A stretch of 64,000 bases of DNA from Sabellastarte sp. h YS-2021 (lineage: Eukaryota; Annelida; Polychaeta; Sabellida; Sabellidae), in the NCBI GenBank assembly GCA_964017235.1, contig OZ024928.1:2418001-2482000 (forward strand). The letters run 5' to 3'. The position numbers were made by a program, and so were the translations under genes. Shown piece by piece: positions 3,951 to 55,446 of this stretch (its first letter is position 1; the number at the start of each line of letters is the position of its first letter). Under the pieces are notes generated by a model. It saw only the letters and a program-made list of their open reading frames with translations. It was not told the DNA's origin and did no database searches.

Positions 3951-4133
3951 GCCACAGTGGTCAAGTGGTAACACACGTGCCTTCCACCCCCGAGGTCAGC
4001 GGTTCAAACCCTGGACCTTATGTGGGAAAGTTGGTAGTTGCTTACCTGTGGTCGGTAGTTTAAAGTACAGATCTTTGACCAACTATATGTACTGATTTCC
4101 TTAACACAATGTAAAAACCCAAATAAATGAATG
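3951..4133 (+). mobile_element. tRNA-derived SINE (main family)
   Basis: It has a tRNA-like head with a B-box (GGTTCAAACCC), then the family body (GGGAAAGTTGGTAGTTGCTT) and the tail AAAAACCCAAATAAATGAA. It has diverged from the young copy at 40346-40574. Confidence 0.75.
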
Positions 4134-11863: not shown

Positions 11864-12110
11864 CATGACAAGCAGTATTTGAATTAAAAAACAGAATTTT
11901 ATATCTACAAAATAACAACAGTAACAAATCCATTGTATAAGTAATCCCTTTACAGCTTATATGCTTGATCCTGATAATGTTTTCTTACTTATAAATATGT
12001 ATTATGTCAACATATCCCAACAATATGAACAGTACAAACAAGAAACAAAGACAATTTGAAGATATCTTTAACTGCAAAAATATTATAAGGTATTCAATAA
12101 TTCTTTATAT

Positions 12111-12336
12111 TTATTTGGGGTTTTACATCGCTTTCAACACTGTACAGGTCATATCACGACGGGTAGTTGTTGAAAGGGCAGAAAAAACCAGTACATACAG
12201 TTCATCAGGGTTCTGTACTGTAAACTGCCAACCAACGGCAAGCAACTACCAGCTTTCCCACTTGAGGCCGTGCCGGGAACCGAACCCCAGCCTCAGAGGT
12301 GGGAGGCGAGTGTTACCACTCTGCCACCGTGGCCCC
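12111..12336 (-). mobile_element. full-length tRNA-derived SINE, young
   Basis: It is flanked by a perfect 15-bp target duplication, AATAATTCTTTATAT, at 12096-12110 and 12337-12351. The head resembles tRNA-Gly (CTCGCCTCCCACC), and the tail is AT-rich (AATAAATA on the minus strand). Confidence 0.9.
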
Positions 12337-12425
12337 AATAATTCTTTATATAACCAAAATCACTTTTTTTGATATATTTTGTTTTGATGTAAATCTATTA
12401 AATTCCTTCCAGTGTTTTCTTTCAG

Positions 12426-13807: not shown

Positions 13808-14000
13808 TTAAGGAGCATAAGATGCCTGGGCAGGAGCTTTCATTCCCACAGTGACAGGCACGTTTTCAATGGCTCGGATACCCATGTAGGCCAGAAGACC
13901 TTCGGAATTGAAGCCTAGACCGTCATTAGAGGTCAGGCGTTTGTAAGTGGCTGCCTCTTCACGATACTGGTTCAGAATTCCCTCTGCTTCTTTTTGTGAT
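13808..14000 (-). CDS. SPFH gene exon 7: C terminus and stop
   Basis: This terminal coding exon is 193 nt, with acceptor TTTTTTCAG and stop TAA. It completes Gln238 and encodes residues 239-301: the end of the coiled coil (SQKEAEGILNQYREEAATYK) and a tail LLAYMGIRAIENVPVTVGMK ending SYAP. The LLAYxGxRAI pattern matches the 'tip' segment often found after the SPFH coiled coil. Confidence 0.86.
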
Positions 14001-17000
14001 CTGAAAAAAAATGAATAAACAAAATTTGTGAACATTATTTCTATTCATTTTGTTTAAAATATTTCCATCACCACAAAAAATCCAAGACTTTATGGAGATC
14101 AAGATAATAAAATATTAATACATTCTATGTATTTAATTTTGCTAATACTGTCCTGCTGAATTTGGTGCATGTCTTAATTTGGCACCAACTGGAAATACAC
14201 AAGAAATTCAGTGTCTAACCAATTTTGATAGCTGTCAGAAAGACTTTGATTTGGGATGGCTAATTCAAATCGAAATAAAAGTTTCATGTCACTAATACTT
14301 CAACTAAAAACCGATTTAAAACCATGTCAAAAGTTTGATTACCTCAAAGAGACTTGAAACCAACGTCATCTTTGTTCTAACTGAGAAGCTGTTTACGAAT
14401 ACAAGGCTCAGACTTGGTCATAATTAGGACTAGCTATGTTAGTGTTTTGGAGCTGTAGCTTGGAGTGAAATGACATGATCAACTTTCAACTTTGTATAAT
14501 TTAAGATGACAACTTACTGGATTGCCAGAATGTTGGCATCAGACTGGGCTTTATTGAGGATAATTTCAGCCTGAGTCTCAGCTTCTCTCATCTTGGTTTC
14601 AGCCTCCGTCAAAGCCTGGGGCCTCTCATTCCCCGCCACCTGCAGAGAGAGCAACATCACATTGTGCAGAGTCAAAAATGTTCAAAACTACAAATGGTGT
14701 TAAAGCATTTCATTCATAAAAACCAGACTGAATGCATAAAATGAGAAAAGTTTTACTTTAATGGTAAACAAGAGCACTCAGGGAGTGCATACTTCTGCCA
14801 AAGCCAAACAAATACTTTAAAAAAATCCTCGATTCGGATTTCGTTGCAGATCATATCCAAAATTAAATGAGTTCTATGTTATGCCAAGACTCACCAGCTG
14901 TGGAAATGTGATGTAAATCCATGAAGTACTTTGTTTTTGTATATCTTGGTAACATAAAAACCAAAGAAATAGAATACAACAATCACATATCCCTCTTTTG
15001 CCAGAGGCAATTAAATATGCTTCAATGACAAAGTAATGGATTAAGGTTGCCTGGGTCAATTGTGTTGTGCCACATTTCCATCATTAATTTGCCAATAAAT
15101 GCCACTATTGCATATTTACGAGCTATTGTAGGACCTAGCCAAGTTTAACGTTGGGCCCTGCTATGATCAATCCTGTCACAAAAGATGGGATACATTGTGA
15201 ATTACCAATTAAATTTTATTACATTATGATTAGAAATGGTTAGTCATACAATCAAAAAGGTACATCTTACGACTCGCTCCTAACCACAGTAATTCAAGCA
15301 GGTAACTGATAACTCCAGGTTATGACCATTGTTGGAAATCATGGAAGATTAATCGGGAGACCTTTCTTCTGATTCAAGACCCAATCCAATCCAGGTCAAA
15401 GTCAAAGCTGGGGTTTTATATCCCATTTAACAGCCAGGGTCATATAGGGACAGGTCCTCAGCAATGGCACTTGTGGGACTCGAACCCACAAATGTGACAG
15501 CCTATGATTAGATGCCAAACATGCTAACCACTAGGCCACTGAGGACTTCCCAATCCAGTTCAAGACCCAATGCAACAATAAAGTTGGAACTGATGTATGA
15601 CACATGTTTATTCCTAGCCGACAAACAATACGAACAAATTAAAAATAATTTTCGCTCTGAAAAATTGTCGGTAGGCTATCGTAAGCATATATCACACAAT
15701 CCTCTACATGTCCAGAGCTTTGTTATTTCTTATATTCTTACCGCAGTGGCTTCTATTTAAAAAGCAATATATTTCTTGAAATATGTACAAAATTTAAAAG
15801 AAAAAAAATAGGTTGACTTAGTTTTGTAAACACTTAAATCTTCCAGATTTAGCAATCAAAATGTGACATAAATTGAGCAGACCATTTCTGTCAACATATA
15901 AATTGGTCTAAAAATTCAGAAAAAATATATCTTTTTACAATGCACATGTCCAAATATATATTCAGTTGAGTAAATTTAGTACAGAAAAAATTTTTACAAG
16001 TCAAAGATGACTACTAAAATTCAGCCAATAAAGAAAGACAATATTCATTAGGTTATAACACTGCCCAAGTTCAGTGAAGAATACAAATTTTTACATTACA
16101 AAGGTGGACTTTGTAAAAGTAAGTTCAAAACTGGACAAATTCAGGACAGAATATATATTTTTGTCATGCAAATTTGACTTTTATTTTATAATCACAAATG
16201 GAGCTGCCCTAATTAAGCAAGGAACATAATTTTGCACCAAACTTACCACAATGTCTTCTCTGGCTCGTTCTTTCTGCCTGATAGCATTTTCATACTTGGA
16301 TGGCCGCACAATATTGTTTACCTGCAATATTGATACAATAATAAACATAACATATTGAAACCTGCATAATTCAGGAGTCCCAGATGAGCAAATGCCAAGC
16401 AAAGACTTGGTTTAATCGATCAGGGTCTTTGTTAAAATCAAGCCAAATTTAGAGTGATGAATTTAACTTTATAATTCACAACAGTTATATTACATTTATT
16501 ATCCACAAGAAAGCAAAATAAGTCTGTTTACCTAAAGATTACAAAAAGAACCTGAGAAGTGAATCCATAGCAAAGGGTACCAATGAATATAATAATTTCT
16601 GCCTGAATTTTGATACAACAAAAAGGAGCATAAGCTTTGTAAAACTACCTTTCTATATAACTATTTTATAGGATGTATAGTATCCTAAATATTTCCTGTA
16701 AAATGTCACTTGTTTACGCCAAATCTGAAAAACATATCTCTAGTAAGGGTAACTGCTGAATAATAATTATTATTTCCCGAGTTTTTATATCTCAATTTAA
16801 CTGAATACATTTCGTGGTGGATGATAAATCTTAGGCTGATTAACTACTAAAGCCCCATTCACACTACAGGTGGAAAACCCTGCAGTTGTAGATGTTGGTC
16901 AAAACGCCCCAGTCCTTCAACTACCATCTGACATCTGTATGCAATCTCGTGACACAGTGGCCAAATGTCCAACTCCTTGCACATGCTACGGAAGTTTAAA

Positions 17001-20000
17001 AATGTTTAAAATTTCTGCCTCTGGCCATCACCCCAGCAGTCACAGCCAATCGCCATCCCATATCAGTAAGACCCTCGAGCCTTTATACATACAACTCCAT
17101 ACCCGTCCTTCCATTTCAGTGACATTCTGCAGATAAATTTTTATGGTAACTGAGGTTATATAAGGTTGTGATTTTGTCTCATTTCGGTAGCATATGTTCA
17201 TCCGACGGTTACCATGGTGAGTTGAGGTTAATGGAGGTTGTTTCTCGTTGAACATTGGTTTGTTTTGTACTGTCATCCTATTGTTATAGACGGTTACAAC
17301 TGTGTCCCTTTCATGGCCGTGTGAGTCAAGCCTTATGCTATGAAAACTACAAATCGTGGGAGATATGAAGTATCCTTGGAGATTGTTCCGCTTCTGAGTA
17401 ACACTTCTAACCGTGGGGTATACTGCCTGTAATGTGATTGGGGTATTAGGAAGTATATTAATTTTTTTATCCTTTTATATTTTCATGGAAAATTTCTTTC
17501 CAAAAATAATTAGGTTAAATAATAATCCCTGTAATGCCAACCATTCCAATACCTACCTGCATGTCTGTGACGTCAGTATCAATCAGATTGTATTTGTCAA
17601 CCAGCCTCTTTCTGAGATCTTCCTGGAATAAGCCTCGCTCAGCCTGGAACTGAGAGGTATTAAAATGACTGCACGAGTCATGGATTGCCGACTCCCCTGT
17701 AACCAAACAAGTAAACACATTTAATAAAAAAATTTTGGGGTTTAATTATAATATTTTATTTTACATATAGAGTGCTATAGTACTCCAGCTGTGTTACCAT
17801 TTACTATTTTACTCATACTGTTTTACCCAGTAAATTTGGCAGACAAATAAAGAAGATAGAATAATCATCAACATTTCTGTGTTCGCTGAATTTCAGGCCA
17901 CATATTTTGAATATACAACTAATGACGGCCAAAGAGACATAGGAAATCAATTTTTTTTTTGAAATTTCAAGTATTTCTGAAAGCAGATTCCACATTTTGT
18001 GCTAATTTGGGCTTAACAATATTAACCAAAGACTTAAATATGGCTGCCATAAGTTTTTCTCCTCTTTGAAAATTTGAAATGGATTAAAATAAATTTTAAA
18101 CACCACCACCCCCAAAAGTATTCATCAGAAGTTGTAATGTGGCTACGGTATCTTTCCATTGTAGCGTTTCAATTTCAACAGCATCTTTCTAAAGATAAAA
18201 TGCGTCAAACAAAGGATACATCTGTCACCAATAGTGCTTTTTCAATAGACATAAAGGGTCACATGACACAGAAAACCACTGTAGTTGTTCGACAAATCTA
18301 GCTGAGTCTTAGTTGAGTCACCCTTTGTACAAGCAAGTATGAACAAGGGTTTTGATTCCAAGGTTTGCCCAGCTACCAATTAAACTGTATACAGGTAAAA
18401 CTTAAAAATCAAAGCTAGATTTTTACATTCCATTTCAAGCTGAGTTGACAAATGGACAGGTCATAACTTAACTGCAGGCATCAACATGTTTGTATGAAGG
18501 TATGCCCTCTTACAGCACCCTTTACCCAGGTGCACCCTTTTCCCCTTCATAACTTAAGTATTGTTGTATTTATAGTCAGTGAAATATTTTCTTTACAAAG
18601 GACTTCGGAGTGTTACTTCACGCCAACTGCACAAGTACAGCCCAAGTTCATTGCCTGATATTGCCCTGGCTGAAAGAGAAATCTTTGGTATGACCATTTG
18701 TCAATGTTCCTGAGGTTCTTTAGCCTGCCACTGGTGACAGGACCCAATGGCAGAAGACTTCTATTTTAAAGTGACTTGTACCTGGGATTGGTCCCAAGTC
18801 CTCTGTGTTACAAAGCAAAGTACAGTTTAACTCTAGCTCTTAGGTTGATGTCAAGATTGAAATGAGAGAAATACTTGATCTACTAAACCAGATGTTTCTA
18901 CATAAAAGTTTCAGTTTCACTGGAAATATAATTGATACTTTCCTATCCCTAGTAATGAAGATATTCACAGTGGATACAATATTATTAAAAATATACCAAA
19001 ATTTTACACAAATAAATCTATTTCTTTCCAAAGCATTACACTTCATCTGTAACATACTATTAACATACTATATAATTACTCTGTTGTATTTTTGATTTGT
19101 TATGAAAGTAACAGTGTAAATATATATCTGCATGTATGTCAGTATCGAATACATTTACTGTTTAAATAAACATTTAATAAACATGCAAAATAATAAACAC
19201 TAAATGGGTGAAATAAAATTTTCAGAAAGCTTACACACTTAAAAATTGCACCTCAACAGAAAACTACATACAACACTTACATACACTAAAAACTTCTATT
19301 TTCTGAAACAGTTGGGGGAATCATATGTTGTCTGAATAGTAGAAGATTTATAAAATAGGAGAAATACTTACATAAACATATGCATATTGGGTTATCTATA
19401 CTGTGTATGGCATACCTTACTGGGCCCGTATTCACAAAGATTCTTATTCTTGGAATTAGTCTTATTCTTAGAATTTTTCTTAGAATTGTTGTTTTTCTTA
19501 GAAAAATTCTAAGAATAAGAATTTTCCTATTCACAAAGATTCTTATTCTTAGAATTACGCTTATTCTTAGAATTTTTCTAAGAATGGCCTTTATTCTTAG
19601 AATTTTTCTAAGAATAAGAAATTGCTATATGCACAAAACTGTTATTCTTGACACCAAAAGTGCATCCAAATACAGAAAGTCACTTCTGGGCCTGTATTCA
19701 CAATGATTCTTAGAATTTTTCTTTCAACTACACTTAGTCTAGCCTGTGCACACATTTCCTTTTACTTCTATTCTTAGAATTATTCTTAGCTAAGAATTTT
19801 TTTTGTGAATAGGACTTTATTCTAAGAATAAGAAAATTCTTTGCAAAGAATTTTTCTTAGACTTAAGTGTAATTCTAAGAAAAATTCTAAGAATCTTTGT
19901 GAATACGGGCCCTGATTAAAAAAAACTGGAAAAGTTTGAAAGTTAATAATAAGACCATTTTTTTTCCATTTGATTTTGGGAAGAGCTGGGCCATGACCTG

Positions 20001-23000
20001 TAAATATTGTCCAAACTCTGGGCCAAATAAAATTGTCACCAAATCTTGACAATGGCACGAGGAACAGACAATATATTTTGGTGGTCATCCAGATCACAGT
20101 CAGAATCCAAGAATTTTTTTTAAAGTATTTTTTATCATCAATACACTCATAATCAATATCTGAGGTGTTGGACCTTTGTGGAGGTATGCACTCTTTGAGT
20201 GCTCTTGTTATTACGTTATTATTACAGAAGGATTCAGGTTACACTATACATAGGACTGAAATATTATGAATTCACCAAAGCAAGGCTGTTCTTATGAATT
20301 AATAGAGAACGATTCAGGGATAGACTGGTTTCAATGAAGGAGATATCAGGTAAAAACTCCAAAACAGCTATTTTTTACCCCAGTTTGACCCATAAGGGGG
20401 GGGGGGGGTCGGGTGGTAAAACTGACCGGCTACTTAGACTCTCCACATATGCTTTCCCAATACTTCTTAATACATTCTCAATCTATAAAAGCATCATTAA
20501 AGGAGATATAAGACAAAAACTCGAAATCAGCTATTTTATGACCCCAGTTTGACCCATGGGGGGGAGGGATCAGGGGATAAAAGTGACCAGCTATTTAGAC
20601 TCTCCACATATGCTTTCCCAATACCTCTTAATACATTCTGAAGCTATAAAAGCAACAATAAAGAAGATATAAGGCAAAAACTCGAAATCAGCTATTTTAT
20701 GACCCCAGTTTGACCCATAAGGGGGGGTCGGGGGGTAAAACTGACCGGCTATTTAGACTCTCCACATATGCTTTCCCAATACCTCTTAATACATTCTGAA
20801 GCTATAAAAGCAACAATAAAGGAGATATAAGGCAAAAACTCAAAATCAGCTATTTTATGACCCCAGTTTGACCCATAAGGGGGGGCCGTGGGGTAAAACT
20901 GACCAGCTATTTAGACTCTCCACATATGGTTTCCTATTACCTCCCAATACATTTTATGGCTCTAAATGCTGAGACAAAGTTTAAGACCATATATGAAAAT
21001 CAGCCCCAGCTATCTTGTCATAGCTTTAAATAAATAAACTCACCAATGTCATTAAGCATGGATTGGTAGCCATCATAATCTCTGAACTGCAGGATAATCC
21101 TCTTCAGGCTATTTGGTCTGACTCGATACTGGTAGCTTATGGACAATGTCACCTCAACACCATCTTTATTTAAACACTGAAGGGGAACACAACATATGTG
21201 TGATAATTAATGGGAGTGGATATGAATTTAAACAGCAGACAAAATCCAACACATATATAGATGAGCGTCCCTTGCTTCTCTCTTCAGATACGTAGTCTGT
21301 ACCAAGTTGATTTGGCAATAAATGTAGCCCAAAGTGCAGTAAACCTTTCTGATTTGGATAGGTTTTAAAGGAAAGTGAATAAAGCACCCTTTCCCTGATA
21401 CTGTGCTCCAAGTAGACTACACTGACAAGTATGTCAAAATTTCAGACAAACAAAAGGGAACTTAATACAAATGCAACACAAAACATATACATGAACGCAG
21501 GCAGTACAAAACCACAGTCGCAAGTACAAATAAATTTATGGTTTCCACTTTATATGCACACACAGTAGTGTCTCCATTATCCAAAATTCCTTCATCCAAA
21601 TGTTCCATTATATGAACTCATTTCCTTTAAGTTTTCAAACTGAATATACCTCTTCTAGGATGGTGCTATACTTTGAAATAGTCATCTTTCGGTATGGTCA
21701 GACAACAATAGGGCTCTACCATAATGTACACATATATGGGCTATATATACTGTAAATTCATCCGCCCCATCAGTATCTTGACTATGATTTTGAGTGAGAA
21801 AAGATCAGAAATTAATGCAAATAGAAATTTCCCTGCCCTGTATGTATCAAAATTTGTCCTGCACTGCACGCTTATATGTGCAAGGAACTTTAGAAAATGC
21901 TGCCCGACACTAAAAATCAATCTCACAATAACACAAGCATCCCTGTCTGGTTCTTGAATTTTCTGAAACTAAAAAAAAATGTCTAAAATTATAAACATAA
22001 AAGGCTCATTTCACTACAACAGAAACATTAAAGCATGCTAACAGGAGCTCCAAGCGATGACTCTCCAACTCAAGTTTTGACTCGCAAAACTAAGCAATCT
22101 GACCAGAGTATAAAATATCTCACAACTTATCATGGCAGAGCTTGATGTGATAATTTGGAGAAATCTTGAAAATAAACTGTTAATTTGATTAGATTATCTT
22201 GCGTAAACTCACTTGGATTTATTTAGATGAAAATATAACTTGACACATTTGCAAGTTATGAATGTACTTAACTCAGTAAAAAAACAAAAGCATAAAAAAT
22301 ATTTGTAGGGCTTTGTAGCGGTGAAAATATAATTTCTGCATGACATAAGCACCCTAAATTGGAAAACAACCAATCAACATACAGCTTACAAAGATCTATG
22401 TTTGTATTGGTGTTCCTGATTGGCCAGTGTTTATATTAATAGTCTACTTTACGTTTGTGCCAATTTAGGGCTTTTGTCAAGTTTACATGGAGCAATTGCA
22501 TTATTCAAATCTAAATTCATCTCTATTTACATTTTGCCTGCAAAACCTCGAGTCTGAAAAACCAATTAGAATCATCGCTTGGGCTCTTCGATAATAAAAC
22601 ATAATTCCACAGATGCCATCACAATACAAACATTACATCGTGATATCACCAAATTTTTATGGTTATTTTATGTATTATAACGTCCCCCAAAGGCCAGAGC
22701 GTGTAACTCAGAAGAGTAAGAGAGAGAGCTTAAAATTCTCTAACTTTGTTATCTTCAGTCCACGAGCAAAGGTCACAAGTTCAAACATCTGGCCCCAAGT
22801 TCTGCTTAACATTAGAATTTAGATATTTTAATAGCCGGAGAGTCAAAAATAAAAGAGCATTAGAGTGTTCTCAGGGATCATATTCTACAACAGTATCATT
22901 TTTAACATAGATTTTAAGTATTTCTCACGCCCCATTCACACTACAGGCAGTACGTCCCGTAGCAAGAAGTTTTTCTGGGCGGCGGAACCACCCCCAGGTT

Positions 23001-26000
23001 GCTCCACTTTGTTCAGGGCAGGTGACCACTGATTGGACAGACAGCATTACAAACGTTGGTGGCCGAGAAGCAACCTCCATTAACCTCAACTCACCTTCCG
23101 TAGCCGTTGGACGAACATGTGGCGAAGCAACCAATACCTTTAGTTCACCTTATGTCACCCTATTACACCGAAAGACGACCAATTCACAACCTTATGTACA
23201 CTGTGGACCACACCTTTGGTTACTGTAGTAAGAAATCAATATATGCATGAGCGAAATTGTCTGCGTTTCCTCATGGTACGAAAATCAGAGAGGGAAATTT
23301 TAAACTTCTTCAACTGTGATATTTGCAGGGTAATCGACAGTTTGCCACTGACTCACAAGGTCGCATACGGATGTCAGACGGTGATCCAAGGACATTTCAC
23401 CAAACGCAGGTTACTGCGGCTGATACTGACTGTAGTGTGAATGGAGTTTTAGATTTCAAGTAAGAAATTATGAAACTGAACATTCCTAACTTTTGTTTCG
23501 TGAAAACACAGTCCAAGAAAAACTTGAAAACCTTCCCTTACTTAGATCTAAGGTCACCTCAACTAAGTATTGTTGTAGAATACGGCCCCAGGTCTGGAGC
23601 TCTAACTCTCTTTGGAATAACTTCCCCTGGGCAGGCTACTCAGCTTATCCAGTGGTTAGTAATTTCATCCAATATGCAGGCGTTTCCTATTCATAAATTC
23701 ACAGTAGTAATAAGTTCCTCTGTAGGACATATTTTTACAACAGCCATATCTCTTAACGGTTTAATATACCTTGATGTTAATGTAAATATACCTTGACATA
23801 CCACTCTAAGTTGGATATAACATCACCATTTGAGTATGAAGTCTAAATGGGTTTTAGATTTATGAAATTCTCTTGTTTTTAAAAATTTCCAAATTTCATC
23901 TAATTTAATGGTTCAAACAACCCATTTAAAGAAATTATATGAATTTGGTTAATTAATTCGATATGAAAAAATATATACCAAGTTTTCATGTAAACAGAAT
24001 ACTGCATCTGCACATTGGGAAATGTGCACTAATGATGATATCACAATGTAGAGATTTGCCACTGACATCAAAAGTACATTCATGAATCTGTGGAATCTTA
24101 CCAAGATATCTAAGCATCTTTTTGAAAATGTCATAATCCCTGAACTGCAGAATAATGTTCCTGATTTCAGGTGGTCTGACCCGATACTGGTAACTGATGG
24201 AAAGTCTCACCTCCACACCATCCTTGTTAAGACACTGTTTGGGAGCAGGGGCATTAAGTATATAAACATTTATATGACATTGGTGAAATCTTGCCGTGTG
24301 CTTAGGCTGAAAGTATGAAACCAGATATTCATTATTTGCTTAGACAGAAATGCAACCAAGTTTTCTGGCAATCAGAAAAAGTTATAATTCTAAGTTGAAG
24401 TTTTGCTATAAAGAGAAAAGGATAATGAGAATGTTAAATGTTTCTAGTTATAAAGAATCCGCTTCAGATGGAAATACCTGGTGTGACATGAATCTTCCCC
24501 TCCTCTTGCCAGCAAAATGTACATCCCTTGGGGTTGCAATATAATTGCTAAATATGTAAACATCAATATACCGTTACTGCTTCTTTAAATAGACTATATT
24601 ATTTAACTGGTTTGACATGTCCACATACATAGCTGAGTTACATATATTCAAATATTAACACCAGGCGTGCTGTCGCCACAAAGAAATACAAAGATGTTCC
24701 TGTCTTTAACCCTCGTATTCACAGGTACAAAACTCATTTTGATAGATCCTTTGCTAATGATGGACCCAGGCTATGGAACAGTCTCCCACTGGCTGTACAA
24801 TCTGCCCCCACACTGGCATCTTTTGGGCGAGAGCCTGTCCTCCTTGTAAGCACCTTCTCCTCTGGTTATGCCAATGCTTTCTGATGCCGACTCTTTTCTG
24901 TCAATGGACTTACGATATTCTCTTTACCCTCATAATTTATTGTGCCTTAGAATTTGATTTAGATCGAAATTAAGTGCTAAAAAGTTTGTATATTATAATT
25001 ACAGTAGAACCTCTATTATCCAACCCTCTATTATCCAAATTTTCAGTTATCCAACCTCAAACCCACTCTCCCAACTCCATTTAAACCTGTTATTTTAGCC
25101 TTCCTATTATCCGACCTTTCTATTACCTAATTTTGACTCTCCCAAGAAGGTCGGATAATAGAGGTTCTACTGTATATTTTAATTGCTTTAATGAATCTGG
25201 GTTCATGTTGCTTTAAACACTTTGTACTGGTCAAATTGTGATGGATAGCTGAAGAGATGGAGGAAAACAGGGCATACAAGTCCATTCTCATGATAATTTA
25301 TTGCACTGAGTACCGTTTGCAATAGATTAGATAAGATTAGAATAGTATGAAGCCTCTTTATTACAGCTAGACTGATAGATTATAGTTGAACACAAACCTC
25401 AAGAGAGCTGAAATCCAGAGTTCTGAAGACACTTGGGAACTTGATGAAGTAATACCCTGGGGGTCCCGTGTGAAGTCCCGCATAGCTCGGTGTTGAGTAC
25501 AACTTCTTCTGGAAGTTGTTATACTTGATGGCCACTGAAATTGTAGGAAAATAACTGCATGGTGCTATTCCTGATTGCCGAAAGTAAGCTTGACTTGTTG
25601 CGCTGGTCTCCATATATTGATATTTCAATATTAAACACCACTAGATGTCTAGACTTGCTCACAAGTCTTTTACTTTGGGGTTTTTGTTGAGACAATGAAT
25701 GAGTGCATTTTATAGCAGTCTGGATATTTAATATATATGTTTTGTACAAGTTGAGATTTTGTACAAGTTGCAACTTGTACAAACAGATTGTACAAGTTGC
25801 AACTTGTACAGGTTGACTCATACAAGTTGCAACATGTACAAATTTTAGACAATTTTATTCATACAAAGGTTGTACAATTGCAAGAGAAAGAAATATTAAA
25901 TTATTTCTTTAAATATTAAATATTAACACTCTCACTACAAGTACTTCTAGAGGGAAATGGTCTCAGAGAATCATAGTGCACTAAATGAAGGACCTTACAC

Positions 26001-27066
26001 AAGGTCTACTGGTCAGACCTTTTTGAAAAAATATAATTTACAACAGGTGTCTTTGAGAGATATCACAAATTGGCAATGATTCTAACTGTTTAGTTTCAAT
26101 ACGGATATTAAAAGTGTGAAATAATATTTTTTGATCAATTTCAGGTAAATATCTCAACACTGTACTATAATTAGTTACAAGTACTAAATATTTAAACCCT
26201 CAACCTATCACTTGTATTATATATTTGGAGATAAAACTTGATGTGTTAAGGCTTTATTGTAATGCATTATAATAGTTATGATAACTTTAGCATACATTAC
26301 ACAATATGTTATAACGTATTGATAAATTAAGCAGAATTTTAGCAATAAGATGAGTTTTTCAACACCAAAAGTAGAAAGTAGTTTTGTGTCAATATATAAC
26401 TAGAACTATGTTTGTTAGTGCCCTTTTATTTTAAATATCACCATGGTTTATACAAACAAGTGTAGAACATTTTGCTAGTAATTTGCACTGCTATATAATC
26501 TAAACAGACGTCCAGGTCAAAATTACACAAATCTACTAGATTTTTAAAATAATAACGACATGGAGCATAGCGTGAAAAAAGTACAAAAATATCTATGTAT
26601 ATGACAGGTGAAAAATAAAATAACAATATTCTCAAGTTGCCACCTGCATTCTAAAACAGCTTTCAAATAATTCATTTATTTACTGCCAAAATGTATTTTG
26701 AAAATAACTGTTACTGTAAAAATTACATATTAATAAACATTACTACACTTATGTATTTTCTGGAAATGCTACAATCCACCCAAATAAGATCAATTAAGTA
26801 ATTAGTTCTTTCGAATATTGGCTCTTTAGTTGATAACCTTAGAGTGACTTAGTTAAATCGGAAACTTAATAGGAATATCATCCCGAGAATGTTAAAGCTT
26901 ACCTTCATCGGAATTGAGACGTTTTATTGATGACACAACTAAAGAAATCACAACAATGATGAGTGTAACCACAACCCCGCCGACTATGTAAGCTACAGCT
27001 TTACCCATAATTCCCTCACACCTGGTCGTCTGCTACACGTGTTATTGTGAAGATTCACTGTATAAC
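13808..27066 (-). CDS. SPFH/Band 7 domain membrane protein, whole gene (301 aa, spliced)
   Basis: I built this model by joining exons with GT-AG borders and matching phases: 26903-27008 (ATG at 27008), 25398-25534, then either 24102-24234 or 21044-21176, then 17557-17696, 16247-16321, 14518-14639 and 13808-14000 (TAA at 13808-13810). The product is 301 residues. Residues 5-26 form one hydrophobic anchor. Residues 36 to about 200 read like an SPFH domain, with beta segments (DGVEV, LSISYQYRVRP) followed by the helix-rich FQEDLRKRLVDKY region. Residues 185-262 are Ala/Glu/Gln rich and coiled-coil-like. Such proteins assemble as oligomeric scaffolds on membranes. Neither the membrane nor the partners can be read here. 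There is no cleavable signal peptide beyond the anchor. The family call is by pattern recognition. Close relatives could be stomatin-like or an invertebrate-specific SPFH group. Confidence 0.85.
14518..14639 (-). CDS. SPFH gene exon 6: coiled coil
   Basis: The exon is 122 nt, from acceptor CTCTGCAG to donor GTAAGT. It encodes residues 198-237 plus two bases of Gln238. The protein, VAGNERPQALTEAETKMREA continuing into TQAEIILNKAQSDANILAI, is rich in Ala, Glu and Gln, as expected for the long helix following an SPFH domain. Confidence 0.85.
14771..14860 (+). repeat. GAGCACTC-hairpin repeat fragment in intron
   Basis: The words AAGAGCACTCAGGGAGTGCA and TACTTCTGCCAAAG match the end of the family also present at 59827 and 31510. 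Confidence 0.5.
15395..15546 (-). mobile_element. second type of tRNA-derived SINE
   Basis: On the minus strand, GGCCTAGTGGTTAGCATG (A-box region) and GGGTTCGAGTCCCACAAG (B-box region) are followed by a body related to the main family. The tRNA-like part lacks a sound acceptor stem, so it is not a tRNA gene. Confidence 0.65.
15905..16185. repeat. degenerate intronic repeat, about four copies
   Basis: Segments reading AATTCAG-x-AGAA-AT-rich-TTTTTAC/GTC-ATGCA recur at about 15911, 15976, 16069 and 16138. This is an old, much diverged tandem array. Confidence 0.35.
16247..16321 (-). CDS. SPFH gene exon 5
   Basis: This 75-nt microexon-like exon (25 codons) is in phase 0 on both sides, from acceptor TATTGCAG to donor GTAAGT. 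It encodes VNNIVRPSKYENAIRQKERA then REDIV. This is the SPFH-to-coiled-coil transition; the segment Y-x-x-A-I-x-x-K-E-x-A is common to SPFH proteins. Confidence 0.85.
16853..17443 (+). mobile_element. MITE with CCCCATTCACACTACAGG ends, copy 1
   Basis: The left end CCCCATTCACACTACAGG is mirrored by CCTGTAATGTGATTGGGG. It sits about 110 bp from SPFH exon 4, inside the intron. Other copies are at 22930-23446, 34411-34973 and 55468-55790. It is non-coding, about 560-590 bp. Confidence 0.8.
17557..17696 (-). CDS. SPFH gene exon 4: SPFH domain helices
   Basis: The exon is 140 nt, from acceptor GTTACAG to donor GTAGGT, and encodes residues 126-172. The protein contains ESAIHDSCSHFNTSQFQAER, then GLFQEDLRKRLVDKYNLIDT, then DVTDMQ. 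The pattern is an amphipathic helix, then an Arg/Lys helix, then a beta strand, which is the usual second half of an SPFH domain. It ends in phase 0. Confidence 0.85.
18018..18330 (+). mobile_element. fragment of the 1021-1567 MITE family
   Basis: It shares GACTTAAATATGG, the run TTGAAATGG, and GACACAGAAAACCACTGT with 1205-1460. The outer arms are missing or lost. Confidence 0.65.
18568..18828 (-). mobile_element. long tRNA-derived SINE (300-bp family), decayed
   Basis: It carries TTATAGTCAGTGAAATAT, AGGTTCTTTAGCCTGCCACT and GTACCTGGGATTGGTCCC, matching the better copy at 35226-35531. Confidence 0.7.
19422..19912. mobile_element. nested foldback MITE made of TTCTTAGAAT words
   Basis: The outer ends GGGCCCGTATTCACAAAG and CTTTGTGAATACGGGCCC are inverted. 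Inside, a second inverted pair (CCTATTCACAAAG near 19526 and TTTGTGAATAGG near 19805) and a further GGGCCTGTATTCACAATG near 19687 indicate hairpins inserted into hairpins. The arms are almost entirely AGAATAAGAAT-type repeats. Confidence 0.75.
20165..20215 (-). repeat. GAGCACTC-hairpin repeat end
   Basis: GAGGTGTTGGACCTTTG, then TGCACTCTTTGAGTGCTCTT: the same end as at 31440-31510. Confidence 0.5.
20320..20990 (+). repeat. array of four units of about 160 bp in SPFH intron
   Basis: Units start near 20336, 20499, 20659 and 20818. Each contains CCCCAGTTTGACCCATAAGG, a G run, GACTCTCCACATATG and CTTAATACATTCT. The reverse-strand version forms the larger array at 48340-49510. The G runs vary in length between units. 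Confidence 0.85.
21044..21176 (-). CDS. SPFH gene exon 3B (alternative to 24102-24234)
   Basis: This is the downstream copy of the duplicated exon: 133 nt, acceptor CCCTTCAG, donor GTGAGT. The phases and length match exon 3A. It encodes CLNKDGVEVTLSISYQYRVRP, then NSLKRIILQFRDYDGYQSMLNDI, and its last base joins GG of exon 4 to make Gly126. Coding-level conservation of both copies suggests both are used. Which one is the default cannot be told from sequence alone. Confidence 0.82.
22930..23446 (+). mobile_element. MITE with CCCCATTCACACTACAGG ends, copy 2
   Basis: The left end CCCCATTCACACTACAGG pairs with CTGTAGTGTGAATGGAG at the right. It shares TGTACACTGTGGACCAC with the copy at 55468. 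It lies in the intron between exons 3A and 3B. Confidence 0.8.
23490..23700 (+). pseudogene. possible LINE reverse transcriptase remnant
   Basis: A short translated stretch, RPQVWSSNSLWNNFPW, resembles the PRLWNSLP block of CR1-like C termini. The similarity is weak and nothing else supports it. Confidence 0.25.
24102..24234 (-). CDS. SPFH gene exon 3A (alternative to 21044-21176)
   Basis: This is the upstream copy of a duplicated exon: 133 nt, acceptor CCAAACAG, donor GTAAGA. It starts in phase 0 and leaves one base. It encodes 44 full codons beginning CLNKDGVEVRLSISYQYRVRP and ending RDYDIFKKMLRYL. No stop or splice defect is visible. It is identical to exon 3B at 31 of 44 residues. The differences fall at position 10, positions 22-26, and positions 36-39 and 42-44. 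Either copy, but not both, keeps the frame into exon 4. Confidence 0.8.
24662..24985 (+). pseudogene. CR1-like LINE 3' fragment
   Basis: It translates as KKYKDVPVFNPRIHRYKTHF then DGPRLWNSLPLAVQSAPTLA, the C terminus of a CR1/L2-type reverse transcriptase. A 3' UTR follows with GTGCCTTAGA and GAAATTAAGTGCTA. It is heavily 5'-truncated and lies inside an SPFH intron. Confidence 0.8.
25002..25172. mobile_element. 171-bp Tc1/mariner-type (pogo/Tigger-like) MITE
   Basis: The ends CAGTAGAACCTCTATTATCC and GGATAATAGAGGTTCTACTG are perfect inverted repeats flanked by TA on both sides, the usual target site of this superfamily. It has no coding capacity. A decayed relative is at 27190-27355. Confidence 0.88.
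25398..25534 (-). CDS. SPFH gene exon 2: start of SPFH domain
   Basis: The exon is 137 nt, from acceptor TTTCAG to donor GTTTGT, and encodes residues 36-81. The protein reads AIKYNNFQKKLYST, then GPPGYYFIKFPSVFRTLDFSSLE. The GYYFIKFPS pattern is the early beta-strand region typical of SPFH proteins. It ends in phase 0, as both exon 3 versions require. Confidence 0.85.
25732..25880. repeat. single arm of the TTGTACAAGTT palindrome element
   Basis: It begins ATATATATGTTTTGTACAAG and carries diverged palindromes (TTGTACAAGTTGCAACTTGT). It matches the left arm at 32162-32340, but with GC at the centre instead of AT. No second arm was found nearby. It sits in the intron between SPFH exons 1 and 2. 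Confidence 0.7.
26903..27066 (-). CDS. SPFH gene exon 1: 5' UTR end and membrane anchor
   Basis: The acceptor TTTTCAG precedes 27066, so at least one untranslated exon lies further upstream. The ATG is at 27006-27008, and an in-frame TAG occurs upstream in the leader, which fixes this start. The 35 full codons encode MGKAVAYIVG, then a Val/Ile-rich segment to about residue 26, then SSIKRLNSDE. The exon ends after one base of a codon at the donor GTAAGC, and that base plus TG of exon 2 makes Val36. Confidence 0.85.
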
Positions 27067-27189: not shown

Positions 27190-27355
27190 AATAGAGTAGA
27201 ACCCATTTTATCCATACCTCTTTGAGCAGTAATAATTGGGTCAACTAACAGAAGTGTTGGATAATAGAAAGTCTAAAATAACAGGTTTAAATAGAATTGG
27301 GAGAGTGGGTTTGAGGTTGGATAATTGAAACTTTGGAAAATAGAGTGTCAGAATA
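27190..27355. mobile_element. decayed copy of the pogo/Tigger-like MITE
   Basis: GAGTAGAACCCATTTTATCC, TTGGATAATAGAAAG, GGGAGAGTGGGTTTGAGGTT and GGATAATTGAAA match segments of 25002-25172 in mixed order. It lies just upstream of SPFH exon 1. Confidence 0.55.
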
Positions 27356-33544: not shown

Positions 33545-34410
33545 TGTACAGCAATAAAGAAATACATGTTTGTGTGACAGTAGAATTAACTGTATATTTA
33601 CCCAATCTCTTTAAAAGTCTAATTTACAAATTTCAACCATATTTATCTGGTCCTGTCACTTTCTAATCAACAGACTTCAGCTCAAATTATCCATTTAAAC
33701 ATTTACCAGTGAAACTGATAAACCTATGTGATTTTCCAGAATCTAAGCTAACTTACAGTCCGGGTTATGGCAACAGGTATGCTCTGCTTTGCTACATCCC
33801 CTAAACTACCCTTGTGATATGACCTATACAAAGTGTTGAAGAAAACATGACAGGTCCTCAGCGGCCTAGTGGTTAGCAAGTTTGGAATCTAATTACAGGG
33901 GATCAGACTGCTGGCCATTGAACAGGATGCAAAACATCAACTTTGAAAGATGAACAAAACTTTCTACATAAATCACACACAAAATAAAATGTCATTTTTT
34001 TTCAATTTAATCCTTTGTTCAGGCTAGCGAAAATAATACTTGTTTATTTCCACAGGCCAAACAATATATGAAGTGTTTTGTCAATTTAGCATTGACATCA
34101 ATTTGGAAAATGGAGATTGGGTGTGTGTGCATTTCTTCATGTATTCCCAAAACCTGTAACTACTAGCTACTAACCCTGTTTTTGTTAACAAAACAGGCAA
34201 GGTCATGTATTATACAGTAGCCTTGCAAAATTGACTAAGTCAAAATCTAGATTCAAAACATTCATTTCGACAGCTAAGCTAAGGTCCCAAGCGAATCCCA
34301 TTTGTTGTCATGAAATGCAAACACAAATATTTTACCAAAACTGCAGTCTCACAGCAAACTCTGATGATGGAGGTTCTTCTATAATTGTACGTCTCCAATT
34401 AAGGTTGAAA
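33545..34410. other. intergenic with a SINE head fragment
   Basis: CAGGTCCTCAGCGGCCTAGT and GGTTAGCAAG at 33850-33900 match the head of the SINE at 15395-15546. Nothing else is recognised. Confidence 0.45.
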
Positions 34411-36610: not shown

Positions 36611-36624
36611 TCTTAGGCCATAAC

Positions 36625-36829
36625 TCCCACCTCTGCGGCCGGGGTTCGATCCCCGTCATGGCCGTAAGTGGGAAAGCTGGTAGTTGCTTGCCGTTGGTCG
36701 GCAGTTTACAGTACAGAACCCTAGCGAACTATATGTACTGGTTTCCTCTGCCCTTCCAACTACCCGTCGTGATATGACCTGTACAGTGTTGAAAGCGACG
36801 TAAAACCCCAAATAAACAATCTTAGGCCA
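36625..36829 (+). mobile_element. 5'-truncated young SINE (main family)
   Basis: It is flanked by a perfect 14-bp duplication, TCTTAGGCCATAAC, at 36611-36624 and 36830-36843. The tRNA head begins only at TCCCACCTCTGCGGCC, so the A-box half is absent. The body and tail are nearly those of 40346-40574. Confidence 0.9.
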
Positions 36830-37250: not shown

Positions 37251-38242
37251 ATTATGACAGCTATTTCAAGCATTTCAAAAGAGCCGTCTCAAATGCAAAT
37301 AACACATACTGAGTTGTGGTGAATCATCCCAAAAGGCATATCCTACCCTAGCTAATACCAATCCCACTGAATATTGCACTGAATACATGCTACTCAAATA
37401 TAGGACAGGTTGAAGAACTGAAAGTTGTGATCCTTTCACAGAAAAGGTGTAACCTTGGAAAAATGGATTCGTATATAAGCTCACATTGTATTGCCATTGA
37501 TGCAAATAAAAAATTAAGGTATATTATATGAGTTCAAGCTTTTCTATTTATCTAATTTTAGGTCTTATAATTTCATTTTGCAAAATCATCTGAAATATGA
37601 AATAATTCATTTCATACCAACTCAGTGATATTAAGTCATATTGCACAATCAATATCTTTCTTATTTTCTACACAAGCTTTCTTATTGATATTCTGAAAAC
37701 ATGGTACATCAGCACATATCATAATAATGTGAAATAATAATAAAAAGGTACATTATTATTGCATAATTTCTACAGATGAATAATAACATCAATACTCACA
37801 ATACCAAGAGGTATATCCCTTTAGGTAAAAGTATTCAATGAACGTGTTTATTCTGCCATCAAGCAAGAGTATTTGTCCTTACATGCTCAAACAAAGATGT
37901 TGCTTTATTTGCCCCGGCACCTGGCCTTGGTTACAGGATTGGTGCGACAGGAATTTTAACCCCTACCAAAACTTGCTATTGCCATATTTATCTAAGCAAA
38001 GGTCAATACACAATTGAGCTGTAAAACATTTTCTTTCTGTTTACGTGAAACTGCTTGGCTTACTAAATTCAAACTCTGACCAAGCAGGAACACTAATATC
38101 ACTAGAAAAGCACTCATAGAATGCAGACCCACTCCAAGTGCTCGTTCCCACCCCTATTTGTTTCTGTTCTGGGTCACACTATCCGGAATTTTGGTAGGAT
38201 CCTGATCAAACATTGGCAAACTATAGCCAGTATTGTGATTTA

Positions 38243-38473
38243 GATTTATTTTTTGTTTTACATCGTGTTCAACAGCCAGGGTAATATTTTGGATGGGTAG
38301 TTTACGGGTACAGGAACCAGTGCATACTAGTTGGCCAAGATTCTGAACTGTAAATCACTGGGCATCGGCAAGCAACTACCAACTTTCCAACATGAAGCGT
38401 GTGGGACCGAGATTTGAAATGGCGACCTCAGAAGTTGAAGACGTGCACTTTAACTGCTACACCATCGAGCCCC
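38243..38473 (-). mobile_element. decayed tRNA-derived SINE
   Basis: TTTACATCGTGTTCAACAGC, GCAAGCAACTACCAACTTTC and a worn head match the minus-strand form of the main SINE family. Confidence 0.65.
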
Positions 38474-39915: not shown

Positions 39916-40345
39916 CAGGTGTCTTAAACATAAAAAAATCCAACACTAAAACATGTTACCTTAAAATAATTACAGAAAACCCAATAATATATTAATAGCA
40001 TTGATGAAACAGTGAATAAAATCTGGCAGGACTTGAAGTGATCAGCTCCGTTTTAGAAAATAACCCAATGCAAAATTAAACATTGTAAAAACATAAAAAT
40101 TCCAACCTTGTACTTTTTTGTACCTTTTCTGAATTAGATACTCCCCTTTTTTATGCATCCATATGTCGAGGGGAATTTACGAGAGACTTGGGCATGTGCA
40201 TTTTCCTTGCTGGTGTTGCACTTCCTTCCCAGTTACTTAAAGGGTTTGTACGTGCTGTAAGATACACTCACATGTACCTAACACTTATATAAACCTATTG
40301 TACCGCCAGTAGCTATGCGCAGACTGTTCTTTGATATTGAAGTAG

Positions 40346-40574
40346 GGGCCACGGTGGCAGAGTGGTAACACTCTCGCCTCCCACCTCTGAGGCCGGGGTT
40401 CGATTCCCGGCACGACCTCAAGTGGGAAAGCTGGTAGTTGCTTGCCGTTGGTCGGCAGTTTACAGTACAGAACTCTAGCGAACTGTATGTACTGGTTTCC
40501 TCTGCCCTTCCAACTACCCGTCGTGATATGACCTGTACAGCGTTGAAAGCGACATAAAACCCCAAATAAATAAA
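40346..40574 (+). mobile_element. full-length young tRNA-derived SINE
   Basis: It is flanked by a perfect 15-bp duplication, TTGATATTGAAGTAG, at 40331-40345 and 40575-40589. The head GCCACGGTGGCAGAGTGGTA, CTCTCGCCTCCCACC, GGGGTTCGATTCCCGG resembles tRNA-Gly(CCC). The body ends AAACCCCAAATAAATAAA. It is the best family reference here. The 229-bp length agrees with 12111-12336. Confidence 0.92.
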
Positions 40575-47912: not shown

Positions 47913-49584
47913 AAGCGTCCCTGAAAGGGCGCTTATTTGTTTTCGCCTCAGTTTCCTCGCCACCGCCGCCGCATTATGGTCTCCCTTGAATATCTCCCTT
48001 ATTATTAGAAGGTTTCAAACCATATTTGGCAGTTATATACCTTAGGCGTGGGAAAATTTTTCTGCATGCTTAAATTTGACCTTTGACCTTTATGAAGGTC
48101 ACATGATCAAAAACTACTTTTTGAAGTACACCCCCCCGTCATCACAGTTCAGGAAAAACTACTTGCTACAGAGCCTTATAATTTGACACACCTGTTCATA
48201 CTATCGAAATCGCGAGCTGATTAGATTTTGGGAGCAATCCCTTGAAAAATGTCTCATTTATGAGTGATTTTCTGACACCTCCCAATCTGAAAGCCTTAAA
48301 TTTAGGCCAACCCCCCCTATTATCTTCTTAAATATTGCATTTAGAGCTATAAAATGTACTGGGAGGTAATAGGAAACCATATGTGGAGAGTCTAAATAGC
48401 CGGTCAGTTTTACCCCACGGCCCCCCGTATGGGTCAAACTGGGGTCATAATATAGCTGATTTTGAGTTTTTGCCTTATATCTCCTTTATTGTTGCTTTTA
48501 TAGCTTCAGAATGTATTAAGAGGTATTGGGAAAGCATATATGGAGAGTCTAAATAGCCGGTCAGTTTTACCCCCTGGTCCCCCCTTATGGGTCAAACTGG
48601 GGTCATAAAATAGCTGATTTTGAGTTTTTGCCTTATATCTCCTTTATTGCTGCTTTTATAGCTTCAGAATGTATTAAGAGGTATTGGGAAAGCATATATG
48701 GAGAGTCTAAATAGCTGGTCAATTTTACCCCCCAACCCCCCTCCCCCCCCCCCCCCCCCCCCGCCCCTTATGGGGCAAACTGGGGTCATAAAATAGCTGA
48801 TTTTGGGTTTTTGCCTTTATCTCCTTTATTGTTGCTTTTATAGCTTCAGAATATATTAAGAGGTATTGGGAAAGCATATGTGGAGAGTCTAAATAGCCGG
48901 TCAGTTTTACCCCCCGGCCCCCCCTTATGGGCCAAACTGGGGTCATAAATAGCTGCTTTGGAGTTTTTGCCTTATATCTCCTTTATTGTTGCTTTTATAG
49001 CTTCAGAATGTATTAAGAGGTATTGGGAAAGCATATGTGGAGAATCTAAATAGCGGGTCAGTTTTATCCCCCAATCCCCCCTTATGGGTCAAACTGGGGT
49101 CATAAAATAGTTGCTTTGGAGTTTTGCCTTGTATCTCCTTTATTGTTGCTTTTATAGCTTCAGAATGTATCAAGAGGTATTGGGAAAGCATATGTGGAGA
49201 ATCTAAATAGCCGGTCAGTTTTATCCCCCGACCCCCCTTTATGGGTCAAACTGGGGTCATAAAATAGTTGCTTTGGAGTTTTGCCTTATATCTCCTTTAT
49301 TGTTGCTTTTAGACCTTCAGAATATATTAAGAGGTATTGGGAAAGCATATGTGGAGAGTCTAATTAGCCGGTCAGTTTCATCCCCCGACCCTCCCTTATG
49401 GGCCAAACTGGGGTCATAAATAGCTGCTTTGGAGTTTTTGCCTTATATCTCCTTTATTGTTGCTTTTATAGCTTCAGAATGTATTAAGAGGTATTGGGAA
49501 AGCATACGGTGCAGCTTTGTGCATTCTTAGCTTTACAACATGCTTATTAAAACCACAAAGCATTTTAAACTTTAAGGGACGCTT
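47913..49584. mobile_element. array-bearing element with AAGCGTCCCT inverted ends
   Basis: The left end AAGCGTCCCTGAAAGGGCGCTT is itself a small hairpin. The right end reads AAGGGACGCTT (49574-49584). Between them lie a unique leader with GCCACCGCCGCCGCATTATG and an array of about eight 157-bp units from 48340 to 49510. Each unit has GGAGAGTCTAAATAGC, a C run and TGGGTCAAACTGGGGTCATA. The units match 20320-20990 in reverse. The C run reaches about 22 bases near 48741. Confidence 0.82.
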
Positions 49585-53455: not shown

Positions 53456-53640
53456 GTAGGGTCTCATGTGGCCCAGTTGGTATGGTGTTGGACTCATAAT
53501 CCAAGGGTCGTAGGTTCGCTCCCCACTGATGCCAAATGTTTCGTATGGGATAACATCCTTGGGAAAGATGTCAACCTAGACTGTGCCTGACTCTCCACAA
53601 AGGGGAAAATATGGGTACCCAGCTATACTATATAAGAGCC
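53456..53640 (+). mobile_element. SINE with a Met/Ile-like tRNA head
   Basis: The head TGGCCCAGTTGGTATGGTGT, the anticodon arm TTGGACTCATAATCCAA (CAT in the loop) and GTAGGTTCGCTCC are tRNA-like, but the ends do not form an acceptor stem. A SINE-like body follows to TATATAAGAGCCCAG. Confidence 0.6.
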
Positions 53641-55266: not shown

Positions 55267-55446
55267 CTGTTCAAACCCCGGACCTTATGTGGGAAAGTTG
55301 GTAGTTGCTTACCAATTGTTGGCAGTTTACAGTACAGAACCTTGACCAACTGTATGTACTGGTTTCCTCTGCCCACAAAATTACCCATCGTGATATCACA
55401 TGTATAGTGTTGAAACTTGAAAGGGATGTAAAACCATAAATAAATA
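55267..55446 (+). mobile_element. tRNA-derived SINE, 5'-truncated
   Basis: GTTCAAACCCCGGACCTTAT, GGGAAAGTTGGTAGTTGCTT and a tail AAACCATAAATAAATA match the main family without the A-box half. Confidence 0.78.

Follow-up and report, generated by a model that had tools for sequence, protein, structure and literature searches.

The window analysed here, a stretch of 64,000 nucleotides (nt) from the annelid Sabellastarte sp. h YS-2021 (contig OZ024928.1, positions 2,418,001 to 2,482,000), is AT-rich, with a G+C content of 35.6%, and carries on its minus strand a gene for a protein of the SPFH/Band 7 family of membrane scaffolds. One complete gene was assembled from eight exons, seven of which enter each messenger RNA (mRNA), with GT-AG splice sites and the correct phase at all junctions; an in-frame TAG and an in-frame TAA precede the ATG of exon 1 (Table 1). 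Two of the exons, 3A and 3B, are versions of the same coding segment and follow one another in the transcript order exon 2, 3A, 3B, exon 4, with no other exon of the gene detected between them. Taken one at a time, they give two products of 301 residues, isoform A and isoform B, in which one hydrophobic N-terminal helix is followed by a Band_7 domain (residues 31–219) and a charged C-terminal helix region.

Table 1. Exons of the SPFH gene and the intron separating exons 3A and 3B (window positions; a slash marks the splice site).
Feature	Position	Strand	Length	Remarks
Exon 1	26903..27008	-	106 nt from ATG	Hydrophobic helix MGKAVAYIVGGVVVTLIIVVISLVV; donor AAG/GTAAGC
Exon 2	25398..25534	-	137 nt	SPFH domain begins; ends in phase 0; donor GAG/GTTTGT
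Exon 3A	24102..24234	-	133 nt	First of the exon pair; net charge of segment +4
Exon 3B	21044..21176	-	133 nt	Second of the exon pair; net charge of segment +1
Intron 3A-3B	21177..24101	-	2925 nt	
Exon 4	17557..17696	-	140 nt	Finishes the Gly codon split by 3A or 3B
Exon 5	16247..16321	-	75 nt	
Exon 6	14518..14639	-	122 nt	Charged C-terminal helix region begins
Exon 7	13808..14000	-	193 nt including TAA	Coding sequence ends

A sequence-only reading of the window had described the two exons as equal in length, free of stops, flanked by good splice sites, running from phase 0 to phase 1 and coding for 44-residue segments with 31 identities; all of this was reproduced. With 243 coding nt ahead of exon 3, both copies begin in phase 0, and both end within the glycine codon that exon 4 completes. 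They agree at 31/44 residues and 95/132 nt, a likeness far above chance: searched against the window, 3A retrieves 3B at E = 8e-19, the next match lying at E = 0.55. Similarity between the copies ends near the exon boundaries, and a repeat search joined only 154 nt around the exons, as expected of an old duplication event. Searching the window by tblastn with both isoforms and both exons gave neither a third copy nor a doubled version of any other exon. The acceptors read CCCAAACAG/TGT for 3A and CCCCTTCAG/TGT for 3B, and the donors TTG/GTAAGA and TTG/GTGAGT, respectively; the gene span holds 809 GT sites, of which only 1.2% (3A) and 0.7% (3B) show U1 pairing that is as good or better. The pyrimidine tract is weaker at 3A, where it is equalled by 15% of the AG sites in the gene span, as against 2.4% for 3B, and is on a par with that of exon 4. 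The donor of exon 2 is rather weak (6.4% of GT sites are equal or better); that of exon 6 is weaker still, so nothing firm was drawn from it.

The reading frame sets the two exons apart. An mRNA that includes both 3A and 3B reaches a stop after 128 residues, a few codons inside 3B, and one that skips both stops after 118 residues, in exon 4; exactly one exon 3 is therefore needed for a full protein. The earlier proposal that the frame forces the cell to choose thus stands for the protein, as only one-exon mRNAs yield it at full length, and falls short for the spliceosome, which the frame does not prove never to join both. Mutually exclusive use of 3A and 3B is very likely, judging from the frame and from the Band_7 matches and the long-term constraint on both copies described below.

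Both copies show long-term constraint, and their divergence is patchy. The 13 replacements between them lie at exon positions 10, 22–26, 36–39 and 42–44, and 12 fall within the two patches that had been pointed out beforehand, at positions 22–26 and 36–44 (14 codons): 12/14 residues are replaced in the patches and 1/30 in the core formed by the other 30 codons. Clustering of this degree was matched in 0/300 permutations, in a search over all pairs of windows that allows for the post hoc choice of patches. In the core, 29/30 residues are identical despite 14 nt differences, of which 11 are at third positions; 11 are synonymous and 3 nonsynonymous, for 0.04 nonsynonymous (dN) and 1.09 synonymous (dS) substitutions per site and a bootstrap interval of 0.00–0.19 for the ratio of nonsynonymous to synonymous proportions of differences (pN/pS). 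Random placement of the 14 differences kept the 29/30 identity in 0/20,000 trials. When the whole exon of 44 codons is taken, pN/pS comes to 0.41 (bootstrap 0.21–0.78), at a dS of ~0.9. The patches give a pN/pS of 1.44 (bootstrap 0.69–5.27), a range that does not separate relaxed from positive selection.

Neutral decay was simulated with one copy frozen and the other drifting, in both directions, with 5000 runs per distance. At a distance of 0.36, corresponding to the observed nucleotide identity, at least 31 residues stayed identical in 0.2% of runs starting from A and 0.14% of those starting from B. The joint outcome of an open frame, at least 31 identical residues and at most 95 identical nt arose in 0/5000 runs for each copy at each of five distances from 0.1 to 0.45, the zero at short distances reflecting that so many changes are not reached. 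Neither 3A nor 3B has been dead for most of its existence; either may have lost its use very recently.

The swapped segment lies inside the Band 7 domain, as the sequence-only reading had it. Both isoforms match Band_7 (PF01145) well above its curated cut-off of 23.6 bits, isoform A at 67.9 bits (E = 1.5e-18) and isoform B at 76 bits (E = 5e-21); the difference of 8 bits is no more than a hint that 3A has diverged further than 3B. Compared with the PDB, isoform B alone retrieved prohibitins at E = 0.015 and 0.11 only, with an unrelated kinase ranked between them. A profile built from both isoforms and four distant phage and plasmid relatives (A1) matched 38 distinct PDB sequences at E ≤0.01, with PHB2 the best at 1.5e-19; prohibitin, HflC, erlin, HflK, QmcA, stomatin and flotillin are among the matches. 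The protein is thus best assigned as SPFH only, with no one subfamily clearly nearest. In the plasmid and phage collections, one and three records, respectively, matched at 23–25%, and 2/4 of them are annotated as SPFH; these are too distant to tell which exon copy is ancestral.

By alignment with prohibitin, the two patches appear to lie where two helices of the SPFH2 domain begin. In the HMMER alignment of isoform B (E = 0.11), with which the profile alignment is similar, exon 3 covers approximately residues 94–136 of PHB2, patch 1 falling on residues 113–117 and patch 2 on 128–136. This would put patch 1 at the start of helix 2 and patch 2 at the start of helix 3, in an uncertain register; the helix labels are our own and are anchored on L109 in β7 and on R171 and F175 in helix 5, as placed in PMC12624060. 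According to the same source, most SPFH contacts in the closed PHB1/2 ring link β8 in the SPFH2 domain of one subunit to helix 3 in that of its neighbour; helices 2 and 5 and the β7 leucine also take part. In Erlin rings, two hydrogen bonds between neighbours join SPFH2 domains. The earlier suggestion that the gene swaps one face of the SPFH domain is plausible to the extent that the patches align with the starts of helices that take part in contacts in the closed prohibitin ring, and is weakened by the uncertain register and by the loss of most of these contacts in the open ring. A position of the patches at the subunit interface is plausible from these alignments, as the best of several guesses.

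We consider it probable that 3A and 3B are an old and genuine mutually exclusive pair, held apart by the reading frame, that tunes one face of SPFH2. The exon pair, its splice sites, the frame logic, the constraint on each copy and the patchy divergence are observed; with respect to expression, decay, regulation and the effect of the switch, we infer the following course of events. In the distant past, an SPFH exon would have been duplicated in tandem, producing 3A and 3B, which came to be used alternatively. An mRNA with a single exon 3 would be translated into the 301-residue SPFH protein, while those with both or neither would stop early and probably be removed by nonsense-mediated decay; exclusivity would thus be enforced by the frame, and the choice presumably made by splicing regulators. 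Isoforms A and B would have the same membrane anchor, strand core and C-terminal helix region, and would differ at two helix starts in SPFH2, near neighbouring subunits in known rings. The switch would then most likely alter the fit between subunits or what the ring binds.

Several observations weigh against this interpretation. No device that excludes joint inclusion at the RNA level was found among those sought, namely steric hindrance, U12 sites, a distant branch point and ungapped pairing between introns. At 2925 nt, the intron between the exons is longer than steric exclusion would allow. By inspection, the splice sites look U2-type; the AG-free zone ahead of 3B extends for 92 nt, short of the 3A donor. 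Among the three introns, the best ungapped intron-intron pairings scored at or below the mean of 20 shuffles each (30.5 vs 31.0, 28.5 vs 30.1 and 32.0 vs 32.4), a comparison that covers ungapped stretches as distinct from pairing with bulges. Motifs for splicing factors form no notable pattern, with a single TGCATG across introns 2–4, at 19187, downstream of 3B. The structural placement is also open to question. Isoform B aligns with PHB2 only weakly, at the E value of 0.11 given above; in a pairwise alignment, patch 1 agrees for B, patch 2 comes out some residues farther on within its helix, and A is shifted, so that the register is uncertain by a few residues. The open PHB1/2 form loses most SPFH contacts (PMC12624060), and stomatin rings are held together by salt bridges in SPFH1 and in later helices, away from the patches (PMC12344292). 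PHB1 and PHB2 differ at 10/14 positions in 113–126 and at 1/10 in 127–136; patch 1, and not patch 2, is therefore where these ring partners differ. Moreover, the division into core and patches was drawn after the differences were known, both in the sequence-only reading and here. Finally, the viral and prokaryote scans returned no relative carrying the exon pair, only distant SPFH proteins or chance matches. With isoform B as the query, scans of viral contigs (7 stretches) and genome contigs (28 stretches) yielded pattern matches and no relative, and a viral scan with a bait alignment (225 stretches) gave no relative. DNA patterns for two conserved-looking motifs had no match, or chance matches at three loci (L005, L006 and L007), in none of which tblastn detected an SPFH relative.

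For the mechanism, as none of the RNA-level devices sought was found, the reading frame and decay are left, combined with a regulated choice. Where frame and decay ensure exclusivity, such a device would help and is not needed; human mutually exclusive exons include a recognised class of this type, as set out in PMC5740500.

Other explanations account for part of the evidence. One holds that a single copy is in use today, probably 3B, 3A having recently fallen out of use or being included by error. The weaker pyrimidine tract of 3A, the poorer Band_7 fit of isoform A (67.9 vs 76 bits) and the pN/pS of the patches, which is compatible with relaxed constraint, all agree with such a history. Yet the frame of 3A is open, its donor good and its acceptor equal to that of exon 4, and its core protein sequence was kept through about one synonymous substitution per site, which excludes long neutrality and leaves only a recent loss; on balance, we regard this explanation as improbable.

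Considerably less likely is a poison-exon role for the second copy, in which both-exon mRNAs would be made deliberately and then destroyed to set the amount of protein. The stop met by such an mRNA, a few codons into 3B, is well upstream of the last junction, and joint inclusion faces no steric hindrance. However, a poison exon has no need of a conserved protein sequence, and both copies have kept theirs; the role could also coexist with alternative use of the pair, as its by-product. An error of assembly, or a mistaken merger of parts of two tandem genes, has nothing specific in its favour and is most improbable, since exon 3 alone is doubled within 64 kb, and an origin from two haplotypes is ruled out by the dS of ~0.9 between the copies and by a similarity that does not reach far beyond the exons.

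Several repeats lie in the introns around the pair. A tandem repeat of ~160 nt, in four copies, occupies 20332–20969 in the intron just downstream of 3B, and a longer, related array lies in the opposite orientation at 48321–49506, ~28 kb away. In the same intron after 3B, at 19429–19910, lies an element with abundant TTCTTAGAAT-like units and many self-matches in both orientations. The intron before 3A contains a short palindromic element with 29-nt inverted ends (25001–25173), which looks like a small DNA transposon and has an 80% relative at 27196–27348, upstream of exon 1. A 59-nt pair, 71% alike (family D6), has one member in the intron ahead of 3B, at 21562–21620, and the other in the intron ahead of 3A, at 25001–25059. 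It was considered as a remnant of a duplicated flank, a view disfavoured by the location of the second copy inside the palindromic element and by the unequal distances to the exons; the pair is tentatively taken as a dispersed repeat. Elsewhere in the window, a dispersed repeat of up to ~230 nt, 71–92% alike, occurs at 3951–4098, 12100–12340, 36624–36816, 38239–38398, 40345–40572 and 55283–55446, with a 38-nt piece at 33804–33840; its sequence suggests a putative short interspersed nuclear element (SINE). A match to the Rfam transfer RNA (tRNA) model at 53469–53526 scores 30.7 bits against a cut-off of 29 and is not reported by ARAGORN; it is perhaps a tRNA-derived repeat.

Exon pairs of this kind have been described in other genes. 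The nearest parallel in kind is coq-2, whose exons 6a and 6e are reported from nematodes, other helminths, annelids and molluscs and are used one at a time (PMC7434440). There, too, the alternative exons are internal and equally long (134 nt in C. elegans, again indivisible by three), and they remodel the core of one protein. COQ-2 is an enzyme, and its exons switch which product it makes, with proof from RNA sequencing and mutants, whereas the SPFH pair is known here from sequence alone. Among the human frame-separated exons of PMC5740500, joint inclusion likewise causes a frameshift, with decay as the outcome there; the main text of that paper, as distinct from its gene tables, contains none of the words stomatin, prohibitin, flotillin and SPFH. 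A survey of human genes lists 236 annotated events of tandem-duplicated exons, most of them described as ancient (PMC9741552), and its main text, again apart from gene tables, does not contain the words stomatin, prohibitin or flotillin. In exon 10 of the oyster alternative oxidase, tandem exon duplication also yields proteins of equal length, with 15/41 residues differing in C. virginica (PMC5589949), but the exons there are terminal, have their own stops and depend on an alternative 3' splice site, whereas those described here are internal and separated by frame.

Within the family, the nearest parallel is mec-2/stomatin of C. elegans, an SPFH gene varied by splicing, two isoforms of which have been proposed to form heteromers (PMC8934639). 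In mec-2, however, splicing acts on the C terminus, through alternative 3' splice-site use and a cassette exon, and the stomatin domain is present in each of the three isoforms; in the present gene, the swap would take place inside the SPFH domain. No exon switch inside an SPFH domain was found in searches of open-access papers, where the longer lists of results were examined in part; this is consistent with the statement of the sequence-only reading that no such switch was known in stomatin- or prohibitin-type proteins. Splicing of this kind is known, and the pair adds a new case to it, in a family for which these searches showed none.

Rings with two subunit types invite a further comparison. 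In PHB1/PHB2 and Erlin1/Erlin2, two similar SPFH subunits alternate, and some of the contacts lie in the region matching exon 3 (PMC12624060). Each of these pairs is encoded by two genes, with overall identities of 50% and 74%, in contrast to one gene and one exon here. Human stomatin forms a 16-mer SPFH ring with two alternating subunit forms (PMC12344292), which are conformers of one protein that differ in the C-terminal region; alternation therefore needs no two isoforms. That the present gene supplies both subunit types of a mixed ring, with A and B, which would be alike apart from the subunit interface, alternating in one cage as PHB1 and PHB2 or Erlin1 and Erlin2 do, seems to us unlikely. 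If it were true, the A:B ratio set by splicing would decide between homomeric and mixed cages in each tissue.

Closed rings of SPFH proteins organise membranes, and to our knowledge the variation of these rings in the cell is little understood. In the mixed rings of PHB1/2 and Erlin1/2, it takes two genes to supply the two subunits (PMC12624060). One gene able to swap 44 residues close to what is likely the subunit interface would offer a natural experiment in what determines ring make-up. Should the pair have the age that its synonymous divergence points to, it is to be expected in related species as well, and if the proposed switch is true, splicing can retune the SPFH domain itself, beyond the tail.

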